Origin: Bacilli bacterium
GTDB lineage: Bacteria; Bacillota_I; Bacilli_A; RFN20; CAG-826
Reading direction: 5' to 3'
DNA: 40,271 bases
Assembly (NCBI GenBank): GCA_017454295.1
Contig: JAFTDF010000039.1
Coordinates: forward strand, 1-40,271
The translations under genes and the position numbers were made by a program. Within the stretch, counting starts at the first letter, position 1. Each line of letters starts with the position of its first letter. Below the pieces are notes generated by a model. It ran no database searches. It saw only the letters and a program-made list of their open reading frames with translations, and was not told the origin of the DNA. Of the stretch, positions 244 through 26,164 are shown one piece after another.

Positions 244-2046
244 ATGGACAAATCCCGCATCCGCAACTTCTCGATCATCGCCCATATCGACCATGGCAAA
301 TCCACCCTCGCGGACCGGATTTTGGAACAGACCGGGACCGTGGAGCAGCGCTTGATGAAGGAGCAGCTCCTCGATTCGATGGATCTCGAGCGGGAACGGG
401 GCATCACCATTAAACTGAACGCCGTCACCTTATCCTATAAGGCCAAAGACGGACAGGAATACATCTATAACCTCATCGACACCCCGGGGCACGTCGACTT
501 TTCCTATGAAGTCAGCCGCTCCTTAGCCGCGTGCGAAGGCGCTTTATTAGTCGTCGATGCCACCCAAGGCGTGCAAGCCCAAACTTTGGCCAACGTCTAT
601 TTGGCCATCGATAATGACTTGGAGATCATCCCCGTCATCAACAAAATCGACTTGCCGAGCGCCCGTCCCGATTTTGTCAAAGAGGAAATCGAGAAACGGG
701 TTGGGATCCCTGCGGACGAAGCCTGTTTGGTCTCGGCCAAAACCGGCGTCGGCGTCGGCGAAGTCTTAGAAGCGGTGGCGGCTTTGATTCCGCCTCCTGG
801 CGGCGATGAGAATGCGCCGCTACAAGCCTTGATCTTCGATTCCTATTACGATTCTTACCGGGGCGTCATCGTCCAAATCCGCGTCAAAAACGGGGTGGTA
901 AAAGTCGGCGATGAGATTTTGCTTATGCAATCGGGGAAAAAATACCTGGTCACCGAAATCGGCATCCGCACGCCTAGCGAAGTCCCCACCGGCGTCCTCC
1001 ATTGCGGGGAAGTCGGCTATCTAGCCGCCCAAATCAAAGATATCCATGATGTTTTCCCCGGCGAAACCATCACCTTGGCTAACGCCCCCGCCGAAGCACC
1101 TCTTCCCGGCTACCGCCATATCCACCACATGGTCTATTGCGGCCTCTATCCGGTAGATAGCAAGAAATATGGCGATTTAAAAGACGCCTTGGAAAAGCTC
1201 TCCCTCAACGATTCATCGTTGGTCTATCAGCCCGAAACTTCCCAAGCCCTCGGCTTTGGCTTCCGTTGCGGGTTCTTAGGCTTGCTCCATATGGATGTGG
1301 TGCAGGAACGTTTGGAACGCGAATATAACCTCGATTTGATTTTGACGGCCCCCTCTGTCATTTACCGCGTCACCAAAACCGATGGAACCGTCCTTGAGAT
1401 CGATAACCCCTCCAAATTGCCTGATCCCAGCCACATTTCCTTTATTGAAGAACCTTATGTGTCCGCTTCGATCATGGCCCCTCAGGATTATGTGGGGCCG
1501 ATCATGGAACTTTGCCAGCAGCGGCGGGGCATCTACACCGACCTCATCTATGATGACGATACCCGCGTCACCGTCAAATACGATCTCCCCTTATCGGAAA
1601 TCATCTTCAATTTCTTCGATAAGCTGAAGTCCTTCACCAAAGGCTATGCCTCTTTGGACTATGAACTCGCCGATTATCGACGGGGGGATCTAGCAAAGAT
1701 GGATATCCTCTTAAATGGCGAAGTGATCGACGCCCTCTCCTCCATCGTCTTTAAGCCCAATGCCTATCAACGGGGTCTAGCGATGGTGAGCAAACTCAAG
1801 CAAATCATCCCCAGACAGCAATTCGAGGTGCCCGTCCAGGCCGCGATCTCAAATAAAGTCATCGCCCGTGCCGATATCAAGAGCATGCGCAAAGACGTCT
1901 TGGCCAAGTGCTATGGCGGGGATATCAGCCGGAAGAAGAAATTGCTTGAAAAGCAAAAAGAAGGCAAAAAGCGGATGAAGGCCATTGGCTCGGTCGAAGT
2001 CCCGCAGGAAGCCTTCATGTCCGTCCTCTCTTTGGATGAGGAATAA
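244..2046 (+). CDS. lepA: Elongation factor 4 (LepA), translational GTPase
   Basis: Ribosome-bound GTPase of the EF-G-like family that remodels stalled or mispositioned elongating ribosomes. The 600-residue length is the family norm. The N-terminus carries the G1 motif AHIDHGKST, the RGITI switch region, DTPGH (G3) and NKID (G4); the LepA-specific C-terminal part follows, with KPNAYQRG and the Arg/Lys-rich [17 protein letters not shown] tail. The frame is open from 127, but family members begin [17 protein letters not shown], so ATG 244 is chosen. No Shine-Dalgarno precedes it; the perfect -10 lies just upstream, so the mRNA is probably leaderless. Single-gene unit closed by a terminator at 2064. 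Confidence 0.97.
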
Positions 2047-20757: not shown

Positions 20758-20791
20758 CTTGACGTTGCAAACAGGAAGGAAGTGAGTACAA

Positions 20792-20968
20792 GTGGCCATC
20801 AAAACCGTCGTCCGTGAAGGCGAAAACGTCGATGACGCGCTCCGTAGATTCAAACGCGGCGTCAATAAGTCCGGCATCCTTCTCGAAGCTCGTAAGCGCG
20901 AAGCCTACCTCAAACCTGGCTTAAAGCGCAAAATGAAATCCAAACTTGCCCGTCGCAAGAAATGGTAA
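20792..20968 (+). CDS. rpsU: Ribosomal protein bS21
   Basis: 58 residues starting at [23 protein letters not shown], then [10 protein letters not shown], and a Lys/Arg-rich end (KLARRKKW) match bS21, which helps 16S rRNA-mRNA pairing at initiation. AGGAAGG at 20774-20780 serves the start. Own promoter and terminator. Presence of bS21 next to many genes lacking a Shine-Dalgarno is of interest for initiation in this organism. Confidence 0.96.
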
Positions 20969-20975
20969 TCATCAT

Positions 20976-21000
20976 CCCCCGGTAATCCGGGGGTTTCTTT
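20976..21000 (+). terminator. Rho-independent terminator of rpsU
   Basis: CCCCCGG-TAAT-CCGGGGG stem-loop followed by TTTCTTTTTC. Confidence 0.92.
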
Positions 21001-21036: not shown

Positions 21037-22203
21037 ATGGAACCCCTTGTCCAAATCCAAACCCATGGCTGCGGCTTCACCAGCGTGAAGGCCTTGCTCT
21101 TGCACCTAAGCAAAAACCCGGATTTCGCATATCTACCCGAACCCAAGTGCGAGGAAGCACCTCCGTTAAAACGGATTCTTGCCTATGGCAGCGAATATGG
21201 ATTGAAGCTAAAGGGGTTTGCGGCCCTTGATATCAAAAGTGCTTTCCCCAAGGATTATTGCCCCTGCCTCGTGATGCTTCGACGCCCCCAAGGCCCCCAT
21301 ATGGCGTTGCTATTGAAAGCGGGTTTTCTACTTCGTCTTTATGATCCGGAGCGGGGGATAATCTATTTGACGCGCCGCGAGTTTGCCAAAACCTGGAGCG
21401 GGGTGTATATGCGCCTCCAACCGCCCACCTATTTGCTGACGCCACCCGAGGTCAAGATTCGGGAACGGCCGTTTCTGCCTTTGCTAGCAATCTCCTCGGC
21501 TTTGCCGAGCATCTCCTTGGTGCTAGGTTTGGTTTTCTTAGAAAAAGGCGGGCTTGGGTATGGTTTCCTCGGTCTTGCTTTGCTGCTACTATTTGGAAAC
21601 CGAATCCTGCTGTTTTTCGCTTCTCGATGTTTGAATGAGCAAGCGTTTCCCCGTTTGCGTGGATGCGGTGACCGCAAAGAGGTCTATGCGGCCTTCCAAT
21701 CTTATAAAGGGAGCTTCCTATCCTTACCCCTGAAAGCCGGCTCGATTCTGGGAATGATCGCTTCTTTGCTCTATGTGGGCAGTGGGGCCTCTTTCCTATT
21801 GCTGCGCGATATGGGCTGTTTCTTCGTGGGTTGTTTTCTTTTAGAACTCTATCGGCAGCGAAAAATCGAAAGGGACGCTCCCGCGTTTGCCTCTTTGGAG
21901 CGGGATTATTACCAAAGCGGACACGAGGACAAACTCCGCTTGCTTCTAAAGCGTCAGGAAGGGATCGGGGCTTTCTTCGCCCGCATCGGCTTATGGTCTT
22001 GGCTGTTGCTTGGGGCGGTGCTTTGCTCGTTGCTATTAGAAATCGAACTTCCTTTTCCAGTGGCCTTATTGCACCTGTTCTTGTTTTTCCCATTACGCGA
22101 GGTGGCCGCGTCTAGCCAAAACCTACCTTCCCAAATCAAAGAATACCGGCGTGCCAAAGCCCGTTTTTACACACCCCTATATGAGGAAGGGTTTTCTAAT
22201 TAG
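21037..22203 (+). CDS. C39-like cysteine peptidase fused to a six-helix membrane domain, no ATPase
   Basis: 388 residues. Residues 1-130 read as a C39 bacteriocin-processing peptidase: oxyanion Gln6, catalytic Cys12 in HGCGFTSVK, His88 in GPHMALLL and Asp103 in LYDPERG, followed by the family's FAKTWSGV-type end. Residues 145-375 contain about six hydrophobic helices (near 147-166, 172-194, 235-255, 257-275, 316-338, 343-358) with long polar loops, as in the membrane half of peptidase-containing ABC exporters. The protein then stops: no Walker A, signature or Walker B motif. It may process a Gly-Gly-type leader at the membrane, or work with an ATPase encoded elsewhere. No leader-peptide gene is visible nearby. 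Single-gene unit. Confidence 0.75.
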   Translation: MEPLVQIQTHGCGFTSVKALLLHLSKNPDFAYLPEPKCEEAPPLKRILAYGSEYGLKLKGFAALDIKSAFPKDYCPCLVMLRRPQGPHMALLLKAGFLLRLYDPERGIIYLTRREFAKTWSGVYMRLQPPTYLLTPPEVKIRERPFLPLLAISSALPSISLVLGLVFLEKGGLGYGFLGLALLLLFGNRILLFFASRCLNEQAFPRLRGCGDRKEVYAAFQSYKGSFLSLPLKAGSILGMIASLLYVGSGASFLLLRDMGCFFVGCFLLELYRQRKIERDAPAFASLERDYYQSGHEDKLRLLLKRQEGIGAFFARIGLWSWLLLGAVLCSLLLEIELPFPVALLHLFLFFPLREVAASSQNLPSQIKEYRRAKARFYTPLYEEGFSN

Positions 22204-22214
22204 AAAAAGAAGTC

Positions 22215-22220
22215 CATAAT
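22215..22220 (+). promoter_or_regulatory. -10 box of ybeY operon
   Basis: CATAAT ends eight bases before ATG 22229; a weak TTTTCT lies 17 bases upstream (22192-22197). No Shine-Dalgarno in the gap. Confidence 0.5.
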
Positions 22221-22228
22221 ATTGCCAT

Positions 22229-22696
22229 ATGGAACTAATCTTCGATAATGACGTTTCCCCCGAATACGACGCTTTGGAAGACGAATATCGCGCTCTCCTA
22301 TCTTTCGTCTTTGCCGACTTAGGCATCCGGACGAATTATGAGGTGGACGTTTCCCTCGTCGACGCGGAAACGATCCAAACGATCAACCGCGATTACCGTT
22401 CCACCGACCGCGTCACCGACGTCATCTCCTTCGCCTTCGAAGACGATAAGAGCGACCTGGGCAAGATCGTGGGCGATGACATCCCGCGGATGTTAGGGGA
22501 GATTTTCATCTGCGTCCCCCGTTGCCTTGAGCAGGCCAAAGAAATCGGCAATACCCCGAAACGGGAATTCCGGTTCCTCTTCGTCCATGGTTTGCTCCAT
22601 TTGCTCGGCTATGATCACATGAAACCCGAAGACGAAGCGATCATGTTCCCGTTACAAGACCGGCTATTAACCGCCTATGAGGAGGCCCATCCATGA
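22229..22696 (+). CDS. ybeY: Endoribonuclease YbeY (16S rRNA maturation)
   Basis: Zinc endoribonuclease needed for 16S 3'-end maturation and ribosome quality control. 155 residues, with the metal motif HGLLHLLGYDH (His120, His124, His130) and the upstream INRDYRSTDRVTDVISFAF block. First gene of ybeY-cdd-era-recO, a common Firmicutes order. Start without Shine-Dalgarno, next to a -10 box. Stop overlaps cdd by four bases (ATGA). Confidence 0.96.
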   Translation: MELIFDNDVSPEYDALEDEYRALLSFVFADLGIRTNYEVDVSLVDAETIQTINRDYRSTDRVTDVISFAFEDDKSDLGKIVGDDIPRMLGEIFICVPRCLEQAKEIGNTPKREFRFLFVHGLLHLLGYDHMKPEDEAIMFPLQDRLLTAYEEAHP

Positions 22697-23091
22697 CCAA
22701 AGAAGAACTCGTTGCCCTTGCCATCGAAGCCAGGGAACGCTCCTATTCCCCCTATTCCCATTTTGCCGTTGGGGCGGCTTTGCTTTGCCGCGATGGCTCC
22801 GTCTATATCGGGGCCAACATCGAAAACGCCTCTTATCCTCTATGCATGTGTGCGGAACGCACCGCGCTATATAACGCCCTTTTGGATGGCAAAGCCCAGG
22901 AAGACTTCTTGGCCTTGGCCGTCGTGGCCGATACGGAAGGGCCGACTTCCCCGTGTGGGGCTTGCCGTCAGGTCCTTTCCGAGCTCTTCCCGCCCGAGGC
23001 GCCCATTTATATGGCGAACCTGAGCGGCGCCCTGCAAGAGACCTGCGTTCACGAACTTTTGCCCTTTGCCTTTGATGGGGAGGATTTATGA
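22693..23091 (+). CDS. cdd: Cytidine deaminase
   Basis: Deaminates cytidine and deoxycytidine for pyrimidine salvage. 132 residues, the small tetrameric type: SPYSHFAVGAAL, zinc ligand Cys53 and proton-shuttle Glu55 in CAER, and Cys88/Cys91 in PCGACRQ. Overlaps ybeY and era by four bases each, so all three are translationally coupled. Confidence 0.97.
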   Translation: MTKEELVALAIEARERSYSPYSHFAVGAALLCRDGSVYIGANIENASYPLCMCAERTALYNALLDGKAQEDFLALAVVADTEGPTSPCGACRQVLSELFPPEAPIYMANLSGALQETCVHELLPFAFDGEDL

Positions 23092-23975
23092 GAAGCGGTT
23101 TCGTCGCCATCTTAGGGCGGCCCAACGTCGGCAAATCCACCCTCGTCAATGCGATGCTTAGCAAAAAAGTTTCCATTGTCTCGCCCAAAGCCCAAACCAC
23201 GCGCGATGCGGTCCTTGGCATCCTCACCGAAGCCGATACCCAAATCGTCTTCCTCGACACGCCGGGGATTTATTTCGGCAAGGAAAAGCTCGATTCCCAT
23301 ATGCGGCGGAGCGCTTTTTCATCTTCTCGGGAAGTCGACGCCATTGTCTATCTCCTCGATGCCGGGGATATCGATTTGGCCCGCGATTTCAAAATCATCG
23401 ATTCCATCCATAGCGAAGCCCCGATCTTCTTTGTTCTGAATAAGATCGATTTGATCGACCCCGAAACCGGGAAGAAGATCCTCGGCCAAATCCGCGATAA
23501 ATATCCGACCCGGCCCATCATCGAGGCTTCTTTGAAGAACAATTTCGGCTTAAAGGAAATCAAGGCCGCGGTTATCCCGACATTGTCGGGAGAGGCGCCA
23601 TTCTATCCCGAGGATTGGCTCACCGACCGTAACCTCGATTACCAAGCCAAAGAAATCATCCGCGAGAAGATGCTGTATTTCCTCGATAAGGAAGTGCCCC
23701 ATTCCTCCGCGGTGAAAATCACCTCGTTCAAAGTGGTCAAAGACGCCTTATCCATTGAGGCTTTGGTCGTCGTCGACCGCGAATCCCATAAGGCAATCGT
23801 CATCGGCAAAGGTGGGGCGATGATCAAAAAGATTTCCATGGCCGCCCGTCAGGAAATGGAAAAGCGGTGGCATCGGCGCGTCTCTTCCCTGGTGTTAAAG
23901 GTGGAAGCCCGCCCCGGGTGGCGAAGCCGCGTCAAAGACCTCGTGGAACTTGGCTATGGCGACACGGGAGAATAA
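23088..23975 (+). CDS. era: GTPase Era
   Basis: Ribosome-assembly GTPase that binds the 3' end of 16S rRNA. 295 residues: G1 GRPNVGKST, the switch segment KAQTTRDAVLGI, G3 DTPG, G4 NKID, and a C-terminal KH domain with IGKGGAMIKKI. Works in the same 30S maturation step as YbeY, two genes upstream. ATGA overlap with cdd. Confidence 0.97.
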   Translation: MRSGFVAILGRPNVGKSTLVNAMLSKKVSIVSPKAQTTRDAVLGILTEADTQIVFLDTPGIYFGKEKLDSHMRRSAFSSSREVDAIVYLLDAGDIDLARDFKIIDSIHSEAPIFFVLNKIDLIDPETGKKILGQIRDKYPTRPIIEASLKNNFGLKEIKAAVIPTLSGEAPFYPEDWLTDRNLDYQAKEIIREKMLYFLDKEVPHSSAVKITSFKVVKDALSIEALVVVDRESHKAIVIGKGGAMIKKISMAARQEMEKRWHRRVSSLVLKVEARPGWRSRVKDLVELGYGDTGE

Positions 23976-24693
23976 ACGTTATACCGGATTCGTTTACCGT
24001 CAGACCCCCATTAAGGAAAAAGACGCGATGGTGTCTTGCATCGGGGAGGAAGGCTTTTTTTCCTTTTTCGCCCGGGGCGTGATGAATCCCGCCTCCAAGG
24101 ATTTCGCCGTCACCCAAGAAGGGAGCTATGGCGAATTCGAACTCAATGTTTCCACCCAAGACGCGTTGCGTCTAAAAGAAGGAAGGTGGATTGCCTCGTA
24201 TCGCAAAGACGGGGACTACGAAGCCACCTTTGCCTTACAGGCCTTATTTGAAATCCTTTCTCGCGCCGTTCCCGAAGAAGACAGCTCAACCCTATACCCC
24301 TTCGTGGAAGCTTTTCTAAAGGCGCTAAAACAAGGCGGGGATCCCTATACCCTCTTAGCCATCCTTTTGGCGAAAACCTTAATGGTGGAGGGCTATGGTC
24401 CGACCATCGACTCTTGCGCCGTCTGCGGCAAAAAGGAAGACATCGTCGCCTTTTCCCCGGAAGCAGGGGGACTACTTTGCCGCGAAGACGCCGAAACCAT
24501 GGGCGTGGCGAAGATGCCCGTGAGCCAACTGCGCGCCTATCGGGCCGTTTTCTTGGTGCCACCAGAGAAATTCGGCACCTTCACTTTACCCAAACTTGAC
24601 CTTCTCCCCATCCTTTCGTTGCTCGGGGCGATGGTGGAAGGAAGCGTGGGCGTGTCCTTAAAAAGTCTCGCCACGATTCTCCGTTATCAATAG
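23956..24693 (+). CDS. recO: DNA repair protein RecO
   Basis: Loads RecA with RecR during RecF-pathway repair. 245 residues: OB-fold N-terminus (YTGFVYRQTPIKEKDAMVS, FARGVMNP), helical C-terminus and a zinc site with CAVCG and a later LLC; only three cysteines are evident, whereas many family members have four. ATG 23956 is inside the era 3' end (20-base overlap); a TTG six bases earlier is possible but less likely. Confidence 0.92.
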   Translation: MATRENKRYTGFVYRQTPIKEKDAMVSCIGEEGFFSFFARGVMNPASKDFAVTQEGSYGEFELNVSTQDALRLKEGRWIASYRKDGDYEATFALQALFEILSRAVPEEDSSTLYPFVEAFLKALKQGGDPYTLLAILLAKTLMVEGYGPTIDSCAVCGKKEDIVAFSPEAGGLLCREDAETMGVAKMPVSQLRAYRAVFLVPPEKFGTFTLPKLDLLPILSLLGAMVEGSVGVSLKSLATILRYQ

Positions 24694-24707
24694 TCACTTA
24701 TAAAGGG

Positions 24708-24735
24708 TTGACATGACGCCCGGAAAAACTATAAT
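24708..24735 (+). promoter_or_regulatory. glyS promoter
   Basis: TTGACA (24708-24713), 16-base spacer, TATAAT (24730-24735), both consensus. The leader is about 45 bases and contains CAGGGGGA before the ATG; too short for a T-box. Confidence 0.85.
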
Positions 24736-24787
24736 TTGGACGTTTTTGTTTTTCTATTAGAAATACTGCATTCAGGGGGACCAATTC

Positions 24788-26164
24788 ATGGCAAACAAAA
24801 CTAGTTTTGAAACCATCACCCAGCATCTTCAAAACACTGGGTATATCTATCAGGGTTCGTCGATTTATGGCGGCCTTTCCAATACGTGGGATTATGGCCC
24901 ACTTGGCGCCGAGATCAAGCGCAACATCCGCGATGCCTGGTGGCGCCGCTTCGTCACCGAAAGCCCGACCAATGTCGGGATCGACGCGGCCATCTTGATG
25001 AATCCCCGCGTTTGGGAAGCCACCGGCCACGTCTCCACCTTCAATGATCCGATGTGCGATTGCAAAGCTTGCAAAGCAAGACACCGCGCGGATAACCTCA
25101 TCAAATCCCAATATCCCGATGCCGACGTCGAAAACATGAGCTTTGAGGATATGGACCATTTCATCGCAGAACATAAGATGGTTTGCCCCGTCTGCGGCAA
25201 GAGCGATTTCACCCCGATCCGTAAGTTCAACATGATGTTCAAGACCCATATCGGGGTCACCGACGATTCCTCGTCCTTAGTCTACCTTCGCCCCGAAACC
25301 GCCCAAGGCGTCTTCGTCAACTTTAAAAACGTGCAACGCACCACGCGTAAGAAATTGCCGCTTGGGATCTGCAACGCCGGGAAGAGCTTCCGCAACGAAA
25401 TCACCCCGGGGAATTTCACCTTCCGCACCCGTGAATTCGAACAATTGGAAATGGAATTCTTCTGCAAGCCCGGCACCGACCTCGAATGGTTTGCCTATTG
25501 GAAGGGGCAGTGCCTCGATTTCATCGATTCCCTCGGCGTGAAGAAGGAAAACCTCCGTTACCGCGACCACGAACCGGCGGAACTCGCCTTCTATTCCAAA
25601 GCGACCACCGATATCGAATATGATTTCCCGACCTTGGGCTTTGGCGAAATCCTCGGCGTAGCCGATCGTACCGATTACGATTTGAAGCGCCACATGGAAT
25701 ACTCCAAGGAAGACCTCACCTATTTCGATCCGGATACCCAAGAGAAATATGTGCCCTATTGCATCGAACCTTCCATGGGCTTAGATCGTTTGATCCTCAT
25801 GGTGCTCGTCGATGCCTATGACGAAGAAGAACTCGAAGGCGGGGATGTGCGCACCGTCATGCATATCGCCCCGAGCCTTGCTCCGTATAAGGCCGCGATT
25901 CTGCCCTTGTCCAAAAAGCTCGCCGAGCCGGCCAAAGAACTCTTTGGGAAGCTCTGCAAGGAGGTGGTGTGCACCTATGACGATACCGGTTCCATCGGAA
26001 AACGTTATCGTCGCCAAGACGAAGTGGGCACCCCCTATTGCGTGACGCTCGACTTCGATAGCGAAAACGATGGCTGCGTTACCATCCGCGAGCGCGATTC
26101 CATGACGCAAGTCCGCCTCCCGATCGGGGAAGTCGCCGCCTATTTGAAAGAACATACCAAGTAA
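24788..26164 (+). CDS. glyS: Glycyl-tRNA synthetase (dimeric, class II)
   Basis: Charges tRNA-Gly. 458 residues, the alpha-2 (eukaryote/Mollicutes/Bacilli) type rather than the alpha2beta2 GlyQ/GlyS form. N-terminal SSIYGGLSNTWDYGPLG, class II motif 2 region FRNEITPGNFTFRTREFEQLEME (shown in parts: FRNEITPG, RTREFEQLEMEFF), and motif 3 PSMGLDRL; the C-terminal anticodon-binding domain runs from about 350. Two CxxC pairs (CDCKACKAR, CPVCGK) indicate the zinc insert. Strong stand-alone promoter, no T-box. Confidence 0.97.
   Translation: MANKTSFETITQHLQNTGYIYQGSSIYGGLSNTWDYGPLGAEIKRNIRDAWWRRFVTESPTNVGIDAAILMNPRVWEATGHVSTFNDPMCDCKACKARHRADNLIKSQYPDADVENMSFEDMDHFIAEHKMVCPVCGKSDFTPIRKFNMMFKTHIGVTDDSSSLVYLRPETAQGVFVNFKNVQRTTRKKLPLGICNAGKSFRNEITPGNFTFRTREFEQLEMEFFCKPGTDLEWFAYWKGQCLDFIDSLGVKKENLRYRDHEPAELAFYSKATTDIEYDFPTLGFGEILGVADRTDYDLKRHMEYSKEDLTYFDPDTQEKYVPYCIEPSMGLDRLILMVLVDAYDEEELEGGDVRTVMHIAPSLAPYKAAILPLSKKLAEPAKELFGKLCKEVVCTYDDTGSIGKRYRRQDEVGTPYCVTLDFDSENDGCVTIRERDSMTQVRLPIGEVAAYLKEHTK

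Follow-up and report, generated by a model that had tools for sequence, protein, structure and literature searches.

Peptidase-containing ABC transporters (PCATs) are understood as machines in which a peptidase, a channel and an ATPase act together, and the exporter HlyB has a C39-like domain that is catalytically dead and a nucleotide-binding domain (NBD) that is present. C39 domains excised from such proteins, LahT150 among them, serve as soluble leader peptidases without a transporter motor (PMC10885120). The window is a 40,271-nucleotide stretch of DNA from a Bacilli bacterium (contig JAFTDF010000039.1; GTDB order RFN20, family CAG-826), and it encodes a protein that joins a C39 peptidase to a membrane domain (TMD) of the ABC-exporter type and has no NBD. 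Candidatus Enteromonas pullistercoris is placed in the same order and family (PMC8035907), and members of CAG-826 and CAG-288 are predicted to be peptidoglycan-deficient and non-sporulating (PMC10868615).

Gene, active site and predicted fold

The open reading frame reported in the earlier note is real and uninterrupted (Table 1). Its upstream neighbor is rpsU (about 20791–20967), followed by a terminator that scored as strong, and downstream ybeY is followed in order by cdd, era, recO, glyS and dnaG. The stop codon (22201–22203) is separated from ybeY by a 25 bp spacer which, as had been claimed, contains no ATPase remnant; the ATPase is missing from the homologues examined as well. The earlier suggestion that the gene forms a unit by itself, with its own promoter, is not borne out, however, as a promoter scan from the rpsU terminator to the ATG gave zero promoter-like matches and a terminator scan from the C39–TMD gene to ybeY detected none. 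It is at least as likely that the gene heads a ybeY-cdd-era operon.

Table 1. Features of the C39–TMD locus and of two further loci discussed in the text. Coordinates refer to the window unless a locus, contig or residue range is given; G, C, L and f numbers are our handles for genomes, contigs, loci and families, G000 being the window genome.
Feature	Coordinates	Strand	Basis or remarks
NBD-less C39 peptidase–TMD gene	21037..22203	+	388 aa; starts with ATG, ends with TAG
C39 papain-like peptidase domain, residues 5–132	21049..21432	+	Pfam PF03412, residues 5–129; structural alignment of the model with peptidase domains of ComA, PCAT1 and LahT type
Gln6 codon, oxyanion-hole residue	21052..21054	+	Invariant in alignment
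Cys12 codon, catalytic nucleophile	21070..21072	+	Invariant in alignment
His88 codon, catalytic	21298..21300	+	Invariant in alignment
Asp103 codon, catalytic	21343..21345	+	Invariant in alignment
Predicted six-helix ABC-exporter-type membrane domain	21472..22119	+	DSSP of model, family hydropathy, structural matches (PCAT1, other ABC exporters)
Predicted helices	Residues: TM1 146–166, TM2 172–208, TM3 213–256, TM4 260–294, TM5 297–334, TM6 340–361		DSSP of model
ybeY, conserved downstream neighbor	22229..22696	+	Gene list; synteny in relatives
Intrinsic terminator after rpsU, separating rpsU from the C39–TMD gene	20976..20993	+	Terminator scan
Tad-like pilus locus	G000:C24, about 22211–25200 (L177); relatives L178–L196		
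Loci of the 329–408 aa protein	L033:6352–7515, L040:4210–5223, L270:4626–5750; elsewhere in G006, G010, G014, G026, G027, G029		

A Pfam scan of the 388-residue protein matches PF03412 (Peptidase_C39) as the sole family, at 25.4 bits versus a curated cut-off of 22, with no ABC_tran and no A24 aspartyl peptidase profile; neither NCBIfam nor the solved structures, searched with the single sequence, gave a match. The complete C39 catalytic set previously read from the sequence (Gln6, Cys12, His88 and Asp103) is present and is invariant in a 34-row family alignment. The AlphaFold2 model calculated with this alignment (pLDDT 86, pTM 0.81) has a papain-like fold, with C39 elements up to residue 127 followed by six membrane helices, of which TM3 is broken near residue 235. 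Residues 1–132 of the model align with the peptidase domains of ComA, AMS/PCAT and PCAT1 with Z of 16–17 and rmsd of 2.1–2.7 (VIA-align).

The top Foldseek match of the whole model is PCAT1 (E 6e-12), and VIA-align places model residues 1–388 on residues 10–468 of the PCAT1 chain (Z up to 20.7, rmsd 7.6 over 377), such that the protein stops where the PCAT1 NBD begins; for the membrane part, alignments with many ABC exporters reach Z of about 14–15. These comparisons agree with the idea of a shortened exporter-like membrane half, in that approximately 80 PCAT1 residues inside the matched range have no counterpart in the model, and their position is suggested by a shortened hydropathy spacing between hairpins. 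Family-averaged hydropathy contains three hydrophobic hairpins with two cytoplasmic stretches between them, and these stretches, measured from the positions of the hydropathy peaks, are about 68 and 80 residues long in PCATs of the same genus, 60 and 68 in family f8, and 50 and 55 in families f1 and f3. An AlphaFold2 model of the PCAT from the window genome has a pLDDT of 47, and a loop-length comparison against it is unreliable. No separate coupling helix is seen in the model of the C39–TMD protein at TM2–TM3 or TM4–TM5. In sequence comparison with PCATs the membrane domain by itself goes unrecognized (hhalign probability 0.3%) and peptidase and membrane domain together score 97.9%; the putative PCAT-type identity of the membrane domain rests on its predicted fold and on the f8 intermediates described below.

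Distribution and related forms in the order

The NBD-less C39–TMD protein is a genuine variant held at the same chromosomal spot across the order and no broken gene, a conclusion that we draw with high confidence as regards architecture and conservation. Among 61 genomes (the window genome and 60 relatives), a direct homologue search gave matches in 32, mostly at 23–35% identity, and none of the 30 homologues fetched (387–423 aa) contains an NBD. With the Pfam C39 model and a family profile, NBD-less forms of ~371–442 aa are found in 42 of the 61 genomes, in families f1, f3, f5 and f8 of the order, so that the C-terminal NBD is not a feature of all homologues; matches elsewhere in the class are mostly full PCATs of 670–750 aa, and in mycoplasma-like genomes the C39 frames are broken at TGA. 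Two genomes, both about 95% complete, lack either any C39 match (G035) or a match to the NBD-less family (G017).

The NBD-less gene is directly upstream of ybeY at 16 of 18 inspected f1/f3 loci, usually with cdd-era-recO-glyS-dnaG beyond it, and a single extra gene lies between the two in G004 and G007, and likewise in G012 (f1). The same position adjoining ybeY recurs in f5 and in further f3 and f2 loci, and the earlier proposal of a lineage-conserved gene beside housekeeping genes holds. In f8 the C39 gene is elsewhere or one gene off ybeY, and in f4 it adjoins ybeY in one of three genomes. The neighbors at the inspected loci are housekeeping genes, and a search for Nif11-type leader peptides linked no Gly-Gly precursor to the NBD-less gene.

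Both domains are under purifying selection, with dN/dS of about 0.12–0.2 for peptidase and membrane domain alike in the closer f1 pairs (e.g. L017–L019, 0.083/0.654 for the peptidase and 0.074/0.629 for the membrane domain). The family diverges fast, with about 22% identity in the 34-row alignment, and the peptidase is the better-conserved half, having a mean column entropy of 2.2 bits versus 2.6 bits in the membrane domain and 14 columns conserved at ≥80% versus four.

Sister families contain a series of forms. Members in f8 (429–441 aa) score above the Pfam ABC_membrane cut-off without an ABC_tran match, the f1, f3 and f5 proteins are shorter, and the f2 gene that adjoins ybeY encodes 167–171 residues comprising a C39 domain and one C-terminal helix. 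Families f8 and f2 keep the catalytic Q/C/H/D residues; in f5, F or E is aligned at Asp103 in two of four members, and the f4 proteins (L235, L236 and L237; 120–131 aa) keep the Cys, His and Asp and have lost the oxyanion Gln. In a tree of the peptidase domain, f1/f3 has a support value of 83 and f1/f3 with f5 a value of 85 (neither starred), and a single clade of f1/f3, f5, f8 and f2 is not rejected (p-AU 0.60). The series would fit one NBD loss in the order and subsequent trimming, although the direction is unproven and the peptidase alignment short.

Three other kinds of protein were observed in these genomes. Frames of 213–282 aa with weak PF03412 matches form a further C39-like kind in several genomes of the genus (G017:C141, G021:C15, G024:C94, G025:C84 and G030:C37). 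A protein of 329–408 aa has C-terminal membrane helices and a cytosolic domain loosely like a degenerate ABC ATPase (weak hhalign probability of 3.4%); in G004, G007 and G012 it is the product of the gene between the C39 gene and ybeY. The Tad-like pilus locus, which occurs in most relatives with no A24 prepilin peptidase, encodes a TadA-like ATPase, two membrane proteins of TadB/C type and pilin-like proteins of 113 aa and of 48–61 aa.

Proposed function and alternatives

On balance we favor, at a little better than an even chance, the reading that the C39–TMD protein is an order-specific, PCAT-derived membrane peptidase that cuts a leader or precursor and carries out no ATP-driven export by itself. 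Its ancestor would be a PCAT whose ATPase domain was lost. The C39 domain would face the cytoplasm, anchored by a shortened six-helix scaffold of exporter fold that is probably dimeric by analogy with PCAT1, and would cleave its precursor after a leader or a similar N-terminal segment. ATP-powered export would not be driven by the protein itself, because the NBD is absent and the NBD-coupling parts of the membrane domain are shortened, and a product that leaves the cell would take another route. The retention of the peptidase in f2, where most of the membrane domain is absent, argues for proteolysis rather than ATP-driven transport as the selected activity, and the purifying selection on the six-helix domain in f1 suggests that the membrane domain has a role of its own. 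Our confidence is moderate for the peptidase function and low for any assignment of substrate. Of the three options offered in the earlier note, the membrane-embedded leader peptidase fits best, since the NBD-docking loops are shortened and the f2 form consists of the peptidase and just one helix, and the half-transporter that borrows an ATPase is less likely. A bolder version of the peptidase reading, which we consider doubtful, is that the family constitutes an order-wide core system, in which an ATP-independent membrane peptidase for processing and release (or for processing only) would serve a conserved and unrecognized peptide or protein secreted by these gut bacteria, which are reduced and probably wall-less.

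As a half-transporter, the protein would borrow a stand-alone ABC ATPase or pair with another exporter subunit, making a split PCAT that exports the peptide it has cleaved. The window genome has 54 ABC_tran matches, some of them in short stand-alone frames, purifying selection acts on the membrane domain, and its few conserved positions (199, 200, 224 and 288) are near the cytoplasmic helix ends, where coupling would occur. This explanation is nevertheless unlikely, as no conserved ATPase gene is present at the C39–TMD loci examined, the cytoplasmic loops are shortened with no separate coupling helix in the model, and f2 retains the peptidase with one helix only. Of two candidate partners, an ABC_tran gene beside one f8 member was rejected, as it is on the opposite strand and adjoins a BPD_transp_1 permease. 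The other, the protein of 337–403 aa encoded between the C39 gene and ybeY in G004, G007 and G012, considered as a degenerate NBD acting in trans, is not supported; it has hhalign probabilities of 0.6% (two rows) and 3.4% (nine rows) and is encoded elsewhere in other genomes.

It is rather improbable that the protein is catalytically silent or regulatory, with a C39 domain that, as in HlyB, binds leaders or peptides and leaves them uncut, and a membrane part acting as scaffold or receptor. Such a role would accommodate the fast divergence of the family and the replacement of some catalytic residues in f5 and f4, but the invariance of Q/C/H/D in the 34 rows, and their conservation in f8 and f2, are hard to explain without catalysis.

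The window genome also has an NHLM-like locus (G000:C22, L094/L301) that encodes a full PCAT together with ABC-type, HlyD-like and radical-SAM-like partner proteins, all named from their sequences alone; a STAS-like protein is also encoded at such loci (L301, L302–L304). Beside the NHLM-like PCAT of related genomes lie genes for Gly-Gly peptides with Nif11-like leaders (L303, L304), and some genomes encode dozens of Nif11-type leader peptides. The presence of both systems in the window genome raises the prospect that the NBD-less protein assists the NHLM/Nif11 system as an additional leader peptidase, but it is the full PCAT, rather than the NBD-less gene, with which the leaders co-occur. Counted as sub-threshold hits (none above the curated cut-off) at an E-value limit set after seeing the table, Nif11-type leaders occur in 14 of 15 PCAT genomes versus two of 46 others (p about 8e-11), and in 12 of 42 genomes with the NBD-less gene versus four of 19 without it (p 0.75), the p-values serving as a guide only among related genomes. 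In the remaining 30 genomes with the NBD-less gene no Nif11-type peptide was found. An accessory role of this kind is very unlikely, and to judge from these sequence counts the NBD-less protein looks independent of the NHLM/Nif11 PCAT system.

An equally remote possibility is that the protein stands in for the prepilin peptidase of the Tad-like pilus. A second, TadA-like ATPase, two TadB/C-like proteins and short pilin-like proteins are widespread among the relatives, and an A24 peptidase is present in only eight of the 61 genomes. However, the pilin-like proteins start almost at the membrane helix (MSEIKGQLLG... or MSYKLGLLLS...), too near it for a C39-type leader to fit, and show no Gly-Gly motif, and the short MSEIKGQLLG... 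proteins are also without a long leader and without Glu5. The Tad-like locus does not track the C39 gene (p 0.17); f3 and f5 have the C39 gene, and no TadA-like ATPase passes the cut-off there except at one canonical pilus locus. The prepilin peptidase role was rejected on the leaderless pilins and on the occurrence of the C39 gene without a TadA-like ATPase.

A truncated or decaying PCAT, as the end of the protein where the NBD should start might suggest, is ruled out by the fixed-length homologues in dozens of relatives and the dN/dS values, together with the open frames and the invariant active site, and is almost certainly the wrong explanation.

Comparison with known systems

The order-wide loss of the ATPase, the trimmed coupling loops and the one-helix f2 form suggest that the peptidase half of a PCAT can survive alone, and the series of forms provides material for studying the change from exporter to processing enzyme. 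The NBD-less family also points to an unrecognized maturation pathway in uncultured gut bacteria.

The closest described systems are PCAT1 of Clostridium thermocellum, ComA and the LahT PCAT/AMS, with which the C39–TMD protein shares the combination of C39 and six-helix exporter domains, a fold match over the whole protein and the catalytic set; it differs in having no NBD, shorter cytoplasmic loops and no adjacent Gly-Gly peptides, and in adjoining ybeY. The NHLM/Nif11 PCAT of the same genome is alike in its C39 domain family, but it possesses an NBD, is accompanied by a partner ABC protein, an HlyD-like protein and co-occurring Gly-Gly peptides, and is 73–81% identical across the genus, versus about 22% for the NBD-less protein. 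HlyB likewise has a C39 fold on an ABC exporter, and the C39–TMD protein is its reverse, with the catalytic set kept and the NBD absent. Excised C39 domains of the LahT150 type are laboratory truncations, whereas the NBD-less form described here is native and keeps its membrane domain. The open-licence literature searched holds no precedent for a natural, order-conserved C39 and membrane domain without an ATPase; PCATs, excised C39 domains and HlyB-type dead C39 domains are already known.
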